The position numbers and the translations under genes were made by a program. Below, piece after piece: positions 30,564 to 64,000 of a stretch of 64,000 nt of DNA (its first letter is position 1; the number at the start of each line of letters is the position of its first letter). The notes below the pieces were generated by a model. It saw only the letters and a list, made by a program, of their open reading frames with translations, was not told where the DNA came from and did no database searches. Source of the stretch: Candidatus Alistipes merdigallinarum (GTDB lineage Bacteria; Bacteroidota; Bacteroidia; Bacteroidales; Rikenellaceae); the NCBI GenBank assembly GCA_019119305.1, contig DWXH01000021.1, positions 62,001-126,000 of the forward strand, written 5' to 3'.

Positions 30564-31475
30564 ATGAAACGAAGAGACTTTTTACGCATCAGCCTGTTGG
30601 GAGGGGCAGCTGCTACGGTTTTCCCGATCGATCTGTCGGCAAAAGGAGCCGGGAAATCGGGATTTACCCTTTGGCAAATCCCCTCACAGGTCGACACGAT
30701 CGGCAACTCCTACGTCTTCCAGACGGACAGAGGCCGTCTGATCGTCATGGACGGAGGAATGAACGAGGAGGCTCCTTTCTTGAGCGGGTTTCTCTCGGCA
30801 CTGGGGTGTGAAGTGGAGGCATGGTTCATCTCCCATCCGCATAACGACCATATGGGCGCCCTTACCGAAATCCTTAAAAAGCCGGGAGATCTGAAGATCA
30901 AAAAGATCTACCACTCCCGATTTTCCGAATCATTGATCGACCGGGAAGAGCCGTATAATATCTATGCCCGCGAATTTTATGCAGAAATCGACAAGCTCGA
31001 TCCGAACGTTACGGAGGTCATTGATCTGAAAGAACCGGGACTGGAGCTGAAAATCGACGGACTGAACCTCAAGATTCTGGGAGTAACCAACGAAGAGCTG
31101 GCCTATACCAATCCATACAACAACTCGAGCATGATCATCCGCGTGTGGGACAAAGCCAAATCGATCGTCTTTCTCGGAGATGCCGGAATCGAATGCGGCG
31201 ACAAAGTATTAGGTAGCACTTACCGGAATGATCTGGATTGCGACTACCTGCAAGTGGCCCATCACGGACAACGAGGTTGCAGCGAGGAATTTTATAAAAC
31301 CATTAAATTCCGCGCCTGCTTATGGCCGACACCGACATGGGTATGGAACAACGATGCCGGAGGCGGAATCAATACGGCACACCTCAAGACATTCGACACC
31401 CGCCGCTGGATGGATGAAATCGGCATTACCGAACACCACGTCAGTTGTATCGACGGACTTTATCGCATGGACTAA
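30564..31475 (+). CDS. Exported metallo-beta-lactamase-fold hydrolase, copy 1
   Basis: MBL-fold protein of 303 residues. The N terminus MKRRDFLRISLLGG is a twin-arginine signal without a lipobox Cys, with cleavage expected near LSA-KG. Metal ligands are intact: HPHNDH (His91, His93, Asp95, His96), the Asp in VFLGDAGIE and the His pair in VAHHGQRG. Overall it resembles the ComEC-type/competence MBL branch. The substrate is unknown. The next gene, after 21 bp, is a close paralogue of identical length. Confidence 0.88.
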   Translation: MKRRDFLRISLLGGAAATVFPIDLSAKGAGKSGFTLWQIPSQVDTIGNSYVFQTDRGRLIVMDGGMNEEAPFLSGFLSALGCEVEAWFISHPHNDHMGALTEILKKPGDLKIKKIYHSRFSESLIDREEPYNIYAREFYAEIDKLDPNVTEVIDLKEPGLELKIDGLNLKILGVTNEELAYTNPYNNSSMIIRVWDKAKSIVFLGDAGIECGDKVLGSTYRNDLDCDYLQVAHHGQRGCSEEFYKTIKFRACLWPTPTWVWNNDAGGGINTAHLKTFDTRRWMDEIGITEHHVSCIDGLYRMD

Positions 31476-31496
31476 CCGATCTAATACATACGCACT

Positions 31497-32408
31497 ATGA
31501 AAAGAAGAGATTTTTTACGTATCAGCCTGCTCGGAGGGGTCGCTGCCACGCTCCTTCCGGTCGACCTGTCGGCTAAAGGGACGGGAAAATCGGGATTCAC
31601 CCTCTGGCAAATTCCCTCCCAAATCAATACGATCGGCAACTCCTATGTCTTTCTGACCGATAAGGGACGTGTCGTCGTAATGGACGGAGGGGTCAAGGAG
31701 GAGGCCATGTTCTTAAAAGGGTTTCTTGCTGCATTGGGGAACGAGGTCGAAGCATGGTTCATCTCACACCCGCATGACGACCACATGGGAGCCCTCAACG
31801 CCATCCTCGAAAATCCGGGAGAGCTAAAGATCAAGAAAATCTACCACTCCCGTTTTTCCAATGCCCTAAGCCGTAGCGAGCAAGGATCCCATCCGTCAAC
31901 CGAAATTTTCTATGCACAACTGGATGCTCTCGATCCAAATGTTACCGAGGTCATCGACCTGCGAGAACCGGGATTGGAACTGAAAATCGATGGATTGAAT
32001 CTCAAGGTTTTGGGTGTAACCAACGAAGAGTTCGCCCATACGAATCCATACAACAACTCCAGTATCATTTTCCGCGTGTGGGACAAAGCCAAATCGATCG
32101 TCTTTCTCGGGGATGCCGGAATCGAATGTGGTGACAAGGTATTAAATAGTATCTACCGGAACGATCTGGATTGCGACTACCTGCAAATGGCCCACCACGG
32201 ACAACAGGGTTGTAGCGAAAGTTTCTATAAAACGATAAAATTCCGTGCCTGCTTATGGCCGACGCCGACATGGGTATGGAACAACGATCAAGGGCAAGGA
32301 ACCAACACCGGTAATCTAAAAACATTCGAAACGCGCCGGTGGATGGATGAAATCGGTATCACCGAACACCACGTCAGTACCGTTGACGGATTATACCGAT
32401 TGGATTAA
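31497..32408 (+). CDS. Exported metallo-beta-lactamase-fold hydrolase, copy 2
   Basis: Second copy of the tandem pair, also 303 residues. It keeps the twin-arginine signal (MKRRDFLRIS), the metal-binding motif HPHDDH at residues 91-96, VFLGDAGIE and MAHHGQQG. Differences from copy 1 cluster near residues 120-138 (RSEQGSHPSTEIFYAQ here), a place that could line the active-site entrance, so substrate divergence is possible. A palindromic terminator follows 28 bp after the stop. Confidence 0.88.
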   Translation: MKRRDFLRISLLGGVAATLLPVDLSAKGTGKSGFTLWQIPSQINTIGNSYVFLTDKGRVVVMDGGVKEEAMFLKGFLAALGNEVEAWFISHPHDDHMGALNAILENPGELKIKKIYHSRFSNALSRSEQGSHPSTEIFYAQLDALDPNVTEVIDLREPGLELKIDGLNLKVLGVTNEEFAHTNPYNNSSIIFRVWDKAKSIVFLGDAGIECGDKVLNSIYRNDLDCDYLQMAHHGQQGCSESFYKTIKFRACLWPTPTWVWNNDQGQGTNTGNLKTFETRRWMDEIGITEHHVSTVDGLYRLD

Positions 32409-59946: not shown

Positions 59947-60007
59947 AGGCACAGTATTAATCGACTTGTACCTATATAACGCAGGGTCTTAACAAATATT
60001 GCACACA

Positions 60008-60592
60008 CTAACTTAAGATTAACTGTTTTTCGTCAATCATCTTGCGCATGTTGATCAGTGCATAACGCATTCGGCCCAATGCCGTATTGATACTTACCTG
60101 CGTCTCGTCGGCAATCTCTTTAAAACTCAATCCCATATAATACCGCATTTTAACGACTTCACGCTGTTCGGCGGGCAAGAATTCCACCAGTTTCCGGACA
60201 TCTGCCGCGATCTGATCGGAAACCATACGGTCCTCGACCGAACGATCGGAAAATTTCTGATTGTTCAGCAGATCATACCCTGCTTCTGTTTCGGAAATAT
60301 TATTTTGCTGTTTTTTCTGCCGGAAGTGATCGATCACCTGATTATGTGCAATACGCAAGACCCACGAGATAAATTTCCCGTTTTCCGTATAGCGCCCGTC
60401 TTTCACAAAACGGAACACACGTATCAAAGTTTCCTGAAAAATATCGTCCGCCAAATCCCGATCTTTGACCATCATATTGATATAATCGAAAACTCGCTGA
60501 CGATGGCGATCGACCAATACGGTTAAAGCACACTCATTGCCTGACTGATAAACATTAAGCAACTCATTATCACTTAACTTCTTCAGATTCAT
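60008..60592 (-). CDS. ECF-type RNA polymerase sigma factor
   Basis: Sigma-70 family ECF factor of 194 residues. Region 2 includes DDIFQETLIRVFRFVKDGRY and FISWVLRIAHNQVIDHFRQK; region 4 includes EFLPAEQREVVKMRYYMGLS and the recognition-helix part SINTALGRMRYAL. The start is ATG 60592 (MNLKKLSDNELL), where region 2 begins; a frame open to 60694 adds 34 residues without homology. No anti-sigma factor with a membrane segment is adjacent, only the 47-residue ORF. Lack of an anti-sigma gene suggests control at transcription or by the small protein. Confidence 0.93.
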   Translation of the reverse strand: MNLKKLSDNELLNVYQSGNECALTVLVDRHRQRVFDYINMMVKDRDLADDIFQETLIRVFRFVKDGRYTENGKFISWVLRIAHNQVIDHFRQKKQQNNISETEAGYDLLNNQKFSDRSVEDRMVSDQIAADVRKLVEFLPAEQREVVKMRYYMGLSFKEIADETQVSINTALGRMRYALINMRKMIDEKQLILS

Positions 60593-60902
60593 ATTTACTA
60601 CTCGGTTTTGGTTTAGAGTAGACTTTTCCGATAGGCAATTTCTTTTAATGTTCGACAATCTTTTCGCAATGTACGCACATTTTTTCAAATTCACAAAATC
60701 TTTTGCAATATTTTTCCGTTATTGATCTTTACAAATCATATGCCAAAAAAACAAATCATACAAAAAAAATGCTACTACACACTATTCCGTTATCCGATTA
60801 GAAAAAAATATAGCCTTTTAAACAAACTCTCCCCCGAAATATATAAAAAAGTAGCGAACCTAAATCGGCCCGCTACTCCCCCCTATAACTTGTATCACAT
60901 CT
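60593..60902. other. AT-rich intergenic stretch
   Basis: About 310 bases between the sigma gene and ahcY. Apart from the ahcY terminator (60845-60877) I see no gene; a plus-strand frame across 60722-60985 overlaps ahcY and has no recognisable product. No TAnnTTTG box was found for the sigma gene. Confidence 0.5.
60845..60877 (-). terminator. Intrinsic terminator after ahcY
   Basis: On the minus strand a stem AGTAGCG/CGCTACT extended by GGCC/GGTT (with G-T pairs) closes a six-base loop and is followed by six T. It begins 26 bases after the ahcY stop. Confidence 0.85.
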
Positions 60903-62315
60903 TTAGTATCTATAAAAATCAGCTTTATACGGGCCGTCAACCGGAACACCGATATAATCGGCCTGTTTCTGCGTCAATCGGGTAAGATGCACACCCAGAC
61001 TGTCGAGATGCAGACGAGCCACCTCTTCATCCAAATGTTTCGGCAGACGGTACACATCCACAGCCATCGGTTTGGTCCATAATTCGATCTGTGCCAACGT
61101 CTGATTCGTAAACGAATTACTCATGACGAACGAAGGATGTCCCGTCGCACACCCCAGATTGACCAAACGCCCTTCGGCCAAGATAAAGATCGAATGACCG
61201 TCGGGGAAGGTATATTTATCGACCTGAGGCTTGATCTCTGTCCTTACGATACCGGGGTAGGCATTCAATTTATCCATCTGGATTTCGTTATCGAAGTGCC
61301 CGATGTTGCATACAATCACCTGATCACTCATGCGTTCCATGTGGTCGATCCGAATGATATCGCAGTTACCGGTCGTTGTCACATAGACATTCCCTTCCGG
61401 CAACGCATCCTCGACGGTTTTCACCTCGAAACCCTCCATAGCAGCCTGCAATGCACAGATCGGGTCGATCTCGGTGACGATCACGCGAGCACCATAGGAA
61501 CGCATACTGGTCGCACACCCTTTTCCTACATCTCCATAGCCGCATACGACAACGACCTTTCCGGCGAGCATGACGTCTGTCGCCCGCTTGATTCCGTCTG
61601 CCAGCGACTCGCGGCATCCGTACAGGTTGTCGAACTTGCTCTTGGTCACCGAATCATTCACGTTGATCGCCGGGAAGAGCAGCTCACCCCGACTCTGCAT
61701 CTGATAGAGCCGATGAACACCTGTCGTCGTCTCTTCCGAAACCCCTTTCACCTCTGCCACCGTCCGATGCCACCGTTGCGGATCTTCAGCAAGCAACGCT
61801 TTCAAAGTATTCATAATAACCGCTTCCTCGTGGCAAGAAGCCTCGTGATCCAATACCGAAGGATCATTCTCTGCCGCATATCCCTTATGAATCAACAGAG
61901 TTGCATCACCGCCATCGTCCACGATCAGATTCGGACCCTTCCCATCCGGAAAACTCAAGGCCATAGCCGTACACCACCAATACTCCTCGAGCGACTCGCC
62001 TTTCCATGCAAACACCGGCACACCGGCCTTGGCAATCGCCGCCGCCGCATGGTCCTGCGTCGAAAAGATGTTGCAACTGGCCCAACGCACCTCAGCGCCC
62101 AACTCAACCAGTGTTTCGATCAGAACCGCCGTCTGGATAGTCATGTGCAACGAACCGGTAATCCGGGCTCCCCGCAGCGGCTTCTCTTTGCTGTATTTTT
62201 TGCGGACGGCCATCAATCCAGGCATCTCCTTCTCGGCAATTTCGATCTCTTTACGCCCCCAGTCCGACAAGCCGATATCGGCTACTTTATAGGGCAAGTT
62301 CAAATCCAAATACAT
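60903..62315 (-). CDS. ahcY: Adenosylhomocysteinase (S-adenosylhomocysteine hydrolase)
   Basis: Splits S-adenosylhomocysteine into adenosine and homocysteine in the methyl cycle. The 470-residue product from ATG 62315 ([16 protein letters not shown]) has the substrate domain ([34 protein letters not shown]), the NAD domain ([16 protein letters not shown]) and the C terminus ending [13 protein letters not shown], all typical. This start has a good Shine-Dalgarno sequence (GGAGG, five bases upstream), a strong reason to use it. The frame is nevertheless open upstream into a riboflavin-kinase domain without any stop codon, so a longer fused product is possible. Confidence 0.95.
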
Positions 62316-62735
62316 TTTTCCCTCCGATTTTATATGATTATTCCTTTTGTTTTCATCACAAATCCCGATCCCGAAACAAGCATTCGCCTCGATCCGGTCC
62401 CGCTCGATCTGCCGGTGCAATTCATCGAGCGAGTCGAATTTTTGCTCCTCCCGGAGAAATCGGATCGGCTCCACGGAGATCTCCCGGCCATACAGATCCC
62501 CGCTGAAATCAAGGATATGGGCTTCGAGCGTGCGCTCCGAATCTTTACATACGGTCGGTTTATAACCGATATTGACCAACGCCGCATAACACCGACCGTC
62601 CACATAAACCCGGGCCGCATAAACTCCATCCTGTAACAACACATCCGCCCCGACCGTCAGGTTCGCCGTGGGGAACCCCATACGTCGGCCGATCCGGTTG
62701 CCGGTCACTACTTTTCCTGTAATTCGAAACTCCAT
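60903..62735 (-). CDS. Possible riboflavin kinase-AhcY fusion reading frame
   Basis: In the same frame as ahcY and without a stop codon, residues 1-140 from ATG 62735 form a complete riboflavin kinase domain: [40 protein letters not shown] and [17 protein letters not shown]. The FAD synthetase domain that precedes this in RibF is missing. After [16 protein letters not shown], where such domains end, about 20 linker residues lead into the AhcY start. The frame is either a 610-residue fusion, two nested products, or the result of a sequence error, as TGATGA occurs in another frame near 62350. The frame is open to 62840, but the extra residues are not RibF-like. Confidence 0.65.
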
Positions 62736-62998
62736 ATCGACATGATCTGCATCGTCGTACCGCACATTGCCCGCCACATCCGGACAACTTCCCGCGCCAC
62801 ACGTTTTATGATCGGGCACAAAGGTAGTAAGAATAATCAAGATTTATGCGAAATCCACAAAGATGTGACTCATTACCAAACGCTCCTGATTCAATAAAAA
62901 TTGCCTCGTTTGTTGAAACGGTTTGTTTTTCGTATCTTGTCCTGCACATAGAGAAACTTTTCCGACGAAAAGTTCGAGAAAACAAGAGATAAAACCTC

Positions 62999-63631
62999 AT
63001 GGAACGCAAAAGTCGTAAGATATATTATACGATGGGAGAAGTGTCGGAGATGTTCGATGTCCGGCCTTCGCTGATCCGGTTTTGGGAGCAGAAATTCGAC
63101 ATACTCAAACCCGACAAAAACCGGAAAGGGAACCGATTGTTCACACCGAAAGATGTCGAGAACCTGAAATTGATTTACCATTTAGTCAAAGAGAACGGTA
63201 TGACCCTTGCCGGAGCAGCCAAACGCCTGCGGGAAAACAAAAAAGGGGAAGAACGGGACCTGGAGGTAATCGAAAAATTACAAAACATCCGATCGTTGCT
63301 ACTCGAGGTTCGGGAAGAGCTTAAAACAAAGGGCGAAGAGACGGTCTTCATCGAAGAGCCTTTCCTCGAGGAGGAAGAATCTATTTCCCCCGAAAAAGAG
63401 TCGGAAACCGCATCACGGACCGAGCAACCCGATTTCGAGCCACAGGACGAAGAGGAGATTCCGATCGGCCCGGCCGTTCCGCGCTTTCTGCAACGGGAGA
63501 TCCCGATCCCGCCACAACCGGTCATCGTCCGGCAGCTCCCTGAAGAGAACGATAACGAAGAGCCCTCAAACCCGGAAGAGCAGAAACAAATATCTCCCCG
63601 TCCCATTATTATCGAACAATCCCTTTTTTAG
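62999..63631 (+). CDS. MerR-family transcriptional regulator
   Basis: A 210-residue regulator with an N-terminal MerR winged helix-turn-helix (about 7-75: YYTMGEVSEMFDVRPSLIRF, DRF-like FWEQKFDIL, KGNRLFTPKDVENLKLIYHL). After a helical segment (about 80-115) comes an acidic, Pro/Glu-rich tail (about 120-210) of low complexity, with no Cys cluster for metal sensing. The inducer is unknown. It is divergent from the riboflavin kinase-ahcY frame and is followed after 56 bp by the Nif3-type gene, an order familiar in Bacteroidota. Confidence 0.9.
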   Translation: MERKSRKIYYTMGEVSEMFDVRPSLIRFWEQKFDILKPDKNRKGNRLFTPKDVENLKLIYHLVKENGMTLAGAAKRLRENKKGEERDLEVIEKLQNIRSLLLEVREELKTKGEETVFIEEPFLEEEESISPEKESETASRTEQPDFEPQDEEEIPIGPAVPRFLQREIPIPPQPVIVRQLPEENDNEEPSNPEEQKQISPRPIIIEQSLF

Positions 63632-63687
63632 AGACCGCTTTTATAACTTATAGCCCCTCAACTTTTAATCCCAAAACGATATTTGTT

Positions 63688-64000
63688 ATGAAAGTCCGTG
63701 ATATTACCGCAATTATCGAAACGTTCGCACCTCTGTCCCTTCAAGAGAGTTACGACAACAGTGGACTGAGCGTTGGAAATCCTGAATCCGAAGTCTCCGG
63801 AATCCTGTTGTGTGTCGATGTGACGGAATCCGTCATAGATGAAGCCATTGCTCTCGGAGCGAATTTAATCGTGTCACACCATCCGCTGCTTTTCCACCCT
63901 TTACGTCAAGTCGTCGGAGCCGATGCCTCACAACGGATCGTCGCCCGATGCCTCATTGCGGGCATCTCATTGTACGCGGCCCACACCAATTTGGACAACG
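63688..64000 (+). CDS. Nif3-like dinuclear metal protein, N-terminal part (runs off the right edge)
   Basis: The frame starts at ATG 63688 (MKVRDITAIIETFAPLSLQE) and is open to the window end, giving about 104 residues. The family motif SLQESYDNSGLSVGNP, the metal-ligand segment LIVSHHPLLFHPLR and the YAAHTNLD motif are the hallmarks of the Nif3/DUF34 family (also labelled GTP cyclohydrolase type 2-like). The biological role of this family is not settled. The C-terminal part lies outside the window. Confidence 0.93.
   Translation, partial: MKVRDITAIIETFAPLSLQESYDNSGLSVGNPESEVSGILLCVDVTESVIDEAIALGANLIVSHHPLLFHPLRQVVGADASQRIVARCLIAGISLYAAHTNLDN

Follow-up and report, generated by a model that had tools for sequence, protein, structure and literature searches.

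The fused reading frame

The window (the whole 64,000-nucleotide stretch of Candidatus Alistipes merdigallinarum analysed here, genome G000) carries a single stop-free frame of 610 codons on the minus strand at 60903..62735, with an ATG start and a stop at 60905-60903. Alistipes is a member of the Rikenellaceae, order Bacteroidales. As the first-pass annotation had described, a riboflavin kinase (RFK) domain runs through a linker into adenosylhomocysteinase (AhcY) in one open frame, and both domains score above their Pfam cut-offs. The RFK domain (Flavokinase, PF01687; 138.1 bits, cut-off 19.6) covers residues 2-120 (62376..62732, minus strand) and contains GFPTAN, with the PTAN motif, at residues 20-25 and Glu71 in LEAHILDF. 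It is followed by an A-rich linker of residues 121-140 (62316..62375, minus strand) and by AhcY with 470 aa, residues 141-610 (60906..62315, minus strand). In case of AhcY, AdoHcyase PF05221 was matched at residues 149-609 (504.4 bits, cut-off 25), the NAD-binding domain PF00670 with 275.3 bits, and the equivalog TIGR00936 over model positions 1-416 of 416 (632.8 bits vs the cut-off of 497.6); the active-site motifs are present as well. The RFK domain, with GFPTAN and the Glu of LEAHILDF retained, is a predicted riboflavin kinase and the AhcY part, with its usual motifs, a predicted adenosylhomocysteinase.

The frame is open from TTG 62840 or ATG 62735 to the stop at 60903. Because the stretch back to the TTG holds TACCTTTG (62819..62826, minus strand, 91 nt before the ATG), a candidate Bacteroidota -7 promoter element, the ATG at 62735 is preferred as the start. 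TAnnTTTG, the consensus of this element, occurs within the 220 nt preceding RFK at 42 of the 93 loci described below, with 0.071 expected per locus from shuffling. The computed mass of the fusion is 67.8 kDa, in agreement with the species of roughly 67 kDa that had been forecast; AhcY from its own Met has 52.0 kDa. Searched for riboflavin kinase and with the full-length fusion protein, the 2.34-Mb genome gave this frame alone for both enzymes, and the absence of a second RFK depends on the completeness estimate of 99.48%.

The first structure model of the fusion reached a pLDDT of 49 and the second, a monomer, a mean pLDDT of 61, with mostly 57-83 in RFK and values below 50 for residues 123-150, so that confidence in the linker is low; both models are too weak for a fold search. 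No Rfam match was obtained in 60000-64000 at E ≤1, where a riboswitch near the locus was looked for. Elsewhere in the window, at 30564-32408, two adjoining 303-aa genes of the metallo-beta-lactamase fold share identical domain coordinates, likely due to tandem duplication.

The RFK of bifunctional RibF (FADS type I; chains 1mrz and 2x0k) aligns full-length with that of the fusion (1mrz residues 160-273). RibF, however, carries FAD_syn N-terminal to RFK, whereas the fusion frame lacks an FMN adenylyltransferase domain and AhcY follows RFK. Similarly, the AhcY part is a full-length adenosylhomocysteinase above the curated cut-off (TIGR00936; 6uk3 and others), but it bears a 140-residue RFK extension. 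RibR and the eukaryotic monofunctional riboflavin kinase are RFKs without FAD synthetase and, to our knowledge, are not fused to AhcY; the eukaryotic-type chain 1nb0 aligns distantly with the RFK of the fusion (E 3e-10). None of the best 60 of 63 solved chains spans both RFK and AhcY.

Separation of kinase and FAD synthetase

The FAD synthetase of G000 is encoded by a separate 259-aa gene situated behind rex (L003, 1216-1995, minus strand, G000:C33), and this contig is the only one in the genome with FAD_syn above the cut-off. No Pfam RFK match was found in the 259-aa protein by HMMER at an E limit of 10, at which the filters drop most matches above 0.1, and a kinase match is absent from all 27 family FAD synthetases examined. 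The tail of the G000 protein retains KIIPPEGRY, a remnant of the lost kinase domain; except for G029, all family FAD synthetase tails (26 out of 27) show such a K-x-x-P-x-x-G-x-Y remnant. From these sequences the tail appears to be a decayed kinase part and is predicted to be inactive. Thus an RFK on its own is paired with an FAD synthetase without recognisable RFK part, as in the pair of FADS type II and monofunctional RFK. The same division of labour, with an FAD synthetase lacking a working kinase part, is described in PMC2972280 for Alistipes putredinis, where a table gives it for a single genome out of 1194 bacterial genomes surveyed. There RFK is separate, while in G000 it is fused to AhcY, and neither "adenosylhomocysteinase" nor "homocysteine" occurs in the main text of that paper. 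No report of an RFK-AhcY fusion was found in the literature searched (open-licence PMC papers, including passages of PMC2972280 and PMC2248599). As far as these searches reach, the fusion is new and the RibF split in A. putredinis already known.

In six order-mates that belong to different families (G066, G067, G074, G082, G084, and G098), whole RibF directly precedes ahcY; the six were chosen for one-by-one reading from 40 order-mates drawn. Two FAD synthetase genes were observed in 5 of 24 order-mates, namely G065, G067, G073, G077, and G084. In all five, the second gene is located behind rex, as is the FAD synthetase gene of G000, and in four of the five its product lacks a kinase match at E 1e-4. 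In G077, the gene behind rex (L294, G077:C257) encodes a second RibF with a weak kinase match, in which GFPTAN is replaced by GYRSAN, possibly an intermediate of kinase decay. Both arrangements, RibF before ahcY and a second copy behind rex, occur together in G067 and G084.

In the FAD synthetase tree, 25 of the 27 family rows are grouped with the order-mate G061, and G021 and G024 lie outside. A single clade of all family rows and the rex-linked copies is neither rejected nor shown (p 0.415), and synteny is the stronger evidence for the origin of the split. The only FAD synthetase found in G061 (L306, G061:C15) has 187 aa, lacks the kinase part and forms a long branch among the family rows. 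Judged from gene content and order, the family fits a division of labour with RFK at the ahcY site and FAD synthetase at the rex site.

Recurrence of the fusion in the Rikenellaceae

RFK was found in 257 of 268 family genomes, about 150 of them among the matches listed. Stretches were examined from 158 genomes, 156 of the family, with about 100 further RFK-bearing family genomes lying outside this sample. RFK and AhcY occur on one stretch at 93 loci, 91 from the family and two from the order-mates G074 and G084; in the other 65 genomes RFK occurs without AhcY on its stretch, 8 of which extend less than 1200 nt downstream. A single shared frame was observed for 14 of the 91 family loci: G000, G002, G005, G020, G023 (cut by the contig end), G038, G040, G305, G109, G138, G158, G160, G162, and G252. 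The genes are separate at the remaining 79 of the 93 loci, with the RFK stop located between 1940 nt before and 28 nt past the aligned AhcY start.

In a tree of 97 rows (the 93 loci and four database proteins, RFK and AhcY aligned without the linker), the fused or separate state requires 12 changes, 8 of which are forced by well-supported branches. Without four short rows and under a mixture model, 11 changes are required and 7 forced. Since these trees are quick, with many forks left open, and the changes do not distinguish gain from loss, we give the number of events only as "several". On this sequence evidence the fusion is recurrent, in several separate lineages of the Rikenellaceae.

Two other conserved, tightly spaced gene pairs of G000 served as controls. 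Among 61 family genomes drawn, 7 of 41 neighbouring rfk-ahcY pairs are fused, as opposed to none of 53 rex-FADS and none of 52 PBP2-RodA pairs (Fisher, 0.002 for rfk-ahcY vs each control, the genomes being related to each other). These counts were made by hand among the matches listed. The 41 pairs are from examined stretches, some of which were chosen for a long frame; G033, with a gap of 1.9 kb, was left out, and G024 and G049, each with an AhcY row, stand outside the 41. The rex-FADS set includes G016 from another draw, and rex ends at its own stop in both G052 and G058, where the rex and FADS frames are of equal length. PBP2 and RodA overlap in different frames in G000, which makes a fusion harder there. 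Except for that of G000, no row with both domains was present among the matches listed for a class-wide draw of 395 genomes, nor was one among the matches listed for 40 order-mates.

This contrast could be read as the mark of a functional fusion, in which RFK on the AhcY tetramer was selected, either coupling FMN supply to the methyl cycle or stabilising and clustering RFK. That ribF or rfk adjoins ahcY in several of the order's families is in agreement with this, as is the purifying selection on RFK that is indicated by the comparison of G000 with G002 (dN 0.126, dS 0.796). However, the genes stay separate at 79 of the 93 loci, and the linkers are not conserved. They vary in length and sequence among the fused loci; the linkers of G000 and the database protein P0002 differ by three residues, in frame, and over the 20 codons compared between G000 and G002, dN is 0.24 and dS 0.72. 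The neutral chance that the linkers of G000 and G002 both stay stop-free amounts to 0.19-0.47, too large for these linkers to indicate selection on the open frame. Furthermore, 13 of the 61 family genomes (9 of the 13 among the matches listed) gave a single match without an AhcY row: G009, G016, G018, G021, G028, G035, G037, G039, G044, G047, G048, G055, and G057. Since the E-value of this match fits RFK alone, RFK does without AhcY in these genomes, which include incomplete ones; for G044 and G057, both 99% complete, AhcY seems to be absent with RFK retained. We consider selection for a functional fusion improbable, although it is the strongest of the alternatives to a tolerated fusion. Nothing found here supports the link between flavin synthesis and the methyl cycle that the first-pass annotation had raised.

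The predicted internal start and the probable products of the locus

All 14 fused loci have an in-frame ATG at the AhcY start or at most 6 codons away; in G000 this is the codon of Met141 (62313..62315, minus strand), a predicted internal start. The 20 nt before the AhcY ATG contain 52% A in the fused and 53% in the 79 separate loci, compared to a mean of 23% for the interior ATGs of the same frames (n=176). The stretch from -35 to +20 folds at -2.4 kcal/mol at the fused AhcY starts vs -13.4 kcal/mol at the interior ATGs, every one of which is more strongly folded than the AhcY start of its own genome. The A-rich context could be left over from DNA that was intergenic until recently.

A GGAGG shortly before the ATG had been taken as a hint that AhcY is also made alone. 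The letters confirm this motif (62321..62325, minus strand; CCTCC on the plus strand), but an SD-like motif occurs in just two of the 14 fused loci and five of the 79 separate ones. Shine-Dalgarno pairing is reported to be blocked in Bacteroidia (PMC9976891), ribosomes working without it were shown in Flavobacterium and Prevotella (PMC9976891, PMC3155529), A at -3 and other upstream positions together with low mRNA structure are reported to determine starts in Flavobacterium (PMC6847099), and leaders in Prevotella are reported to be unstructured (PMC3155529). Shine-Dalgarno pairing was rejected on these grounds as the main internal start signal. Because such pairing is reported to be absent and SD-like motifs are rare at these loci, the GGAGG is a doubtful signal and probably of small importance. 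The second product itself keeps its support, from the start codon and its context. A separate ahcY promoter inside RFK was rejected as well: TAnnTTTG is absent between RFK and AhcY in G000 and in all 16 loci listed, G000 included, but 10 of the 93 loci do have one.

As no stop closes the RFK part, translation begun at RFK would, if completed, always give the fusion. Since all 14 loci keep the ATG in an A-rich, weakly folded context, free AhcY is likely made in addition, and the likely output of the locus, as predicted from sequence, is RFK-AhcY fusion plus free AhcY. The fusion may also be the sole product, with the internal ATG now an ordinary methionine codon. Such a reading is in line with the missing RFK stop and with a trimmed AhcY leader and tight join in G020 and G040, but the persistence of the start context at all 14 fused loci and of a Met near the AhcY start in 64 of 64 database fusions tested makes it quite unlikely.

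Of the best 120 of 7999 scored database proteins, 62 are fusions as recognised by length and kinase motif; the query covered residues 100-610, the first 40 of which push fusions up the ranking. Rows of 593 aa account for 50 of the 62, and the few examined resemble near-copies or chimeras of one fusion, so the 62 are not 62 independent events. P0204 carries PF03725 and PF01138, PNPase-like domains, before AhcY and is probably a chimeric assembly.

A one-base sequencing or assembly error that deleted a real stop, formerly put forward as the main alternative on account of a TGATGA standing in another frame within the linker (62358-62353, minus strand, confirmed by the letters), is rejected with near certainty: the junction is also open in two sisters of the same genus, G002 (98% identity to G000 in AhcY, 80% in RFK) and G005 (89% and 58%), the single-contig genomes G005 and G020 are both fused, and database clusters of 55 (P0002, 665 aa), 121 (P0004, 621 aa), and 185 members (P0124, 626 aa) carry the join. 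This was the comparison of the junction in related genomes that had been called for; in the other six genomes of the genus a stop is present.

Returning to the reading with two products, we regard it as fairly probable that the RFK-AhcY frame yields fusion and free AhcY from one mRNA. The upstream ATG would give the 67.8-kDa fusion and the internal ATG the 52.0-kDa AhcY; the riboflavin kinase activity of the species would come from the fusion, and free AhcY would add AhcY subunits that assemble with the fused ones. An ancestor within the order would have had two genes of this kind, a whole RibF in front of ahcY and a RibF-like one behind rex. In the family, the former would have been reduced to RFK and the latter to FAD synthetase, and the in-frame stop in the short gap between rfk and ahcY would later have disappeared on several occasions. 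Rather than a channelling device between pathways, the fusion is most likely a tolerated result of tight spacing.

It is tempting, if rather speculative, to go further: the Rikenellaceae might repeatedly have converted the old adjacency of ribF and ahcY into a gene with two products. The AhcY tetramer would then bear the sole RFK N-terminally, FMN supply would be bound to the methyl cycle both in quantity and in location, and the internal start would set the number of kinase-bearing subunits. We hold this for a long shot.

It is unusual for a cofactor enzyme to occur solely as the leading part of a metabolic enzyme to which it is unrelated. Such a fused kinase is easily missed by name; P0030, an RFK-AhcY fusion, bears in its source record only the name adenosylhomocysteinase. 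A graded series is found across the family and its order, from whole RibF by ahcY and RFK alone by ahcY to the fused frame with the internal start kept. This series is a natural test of whether the fusion of genes depends on selection for coupling or simply results from tight spacing, and also of how SD-independent starts operate within a coding frame.
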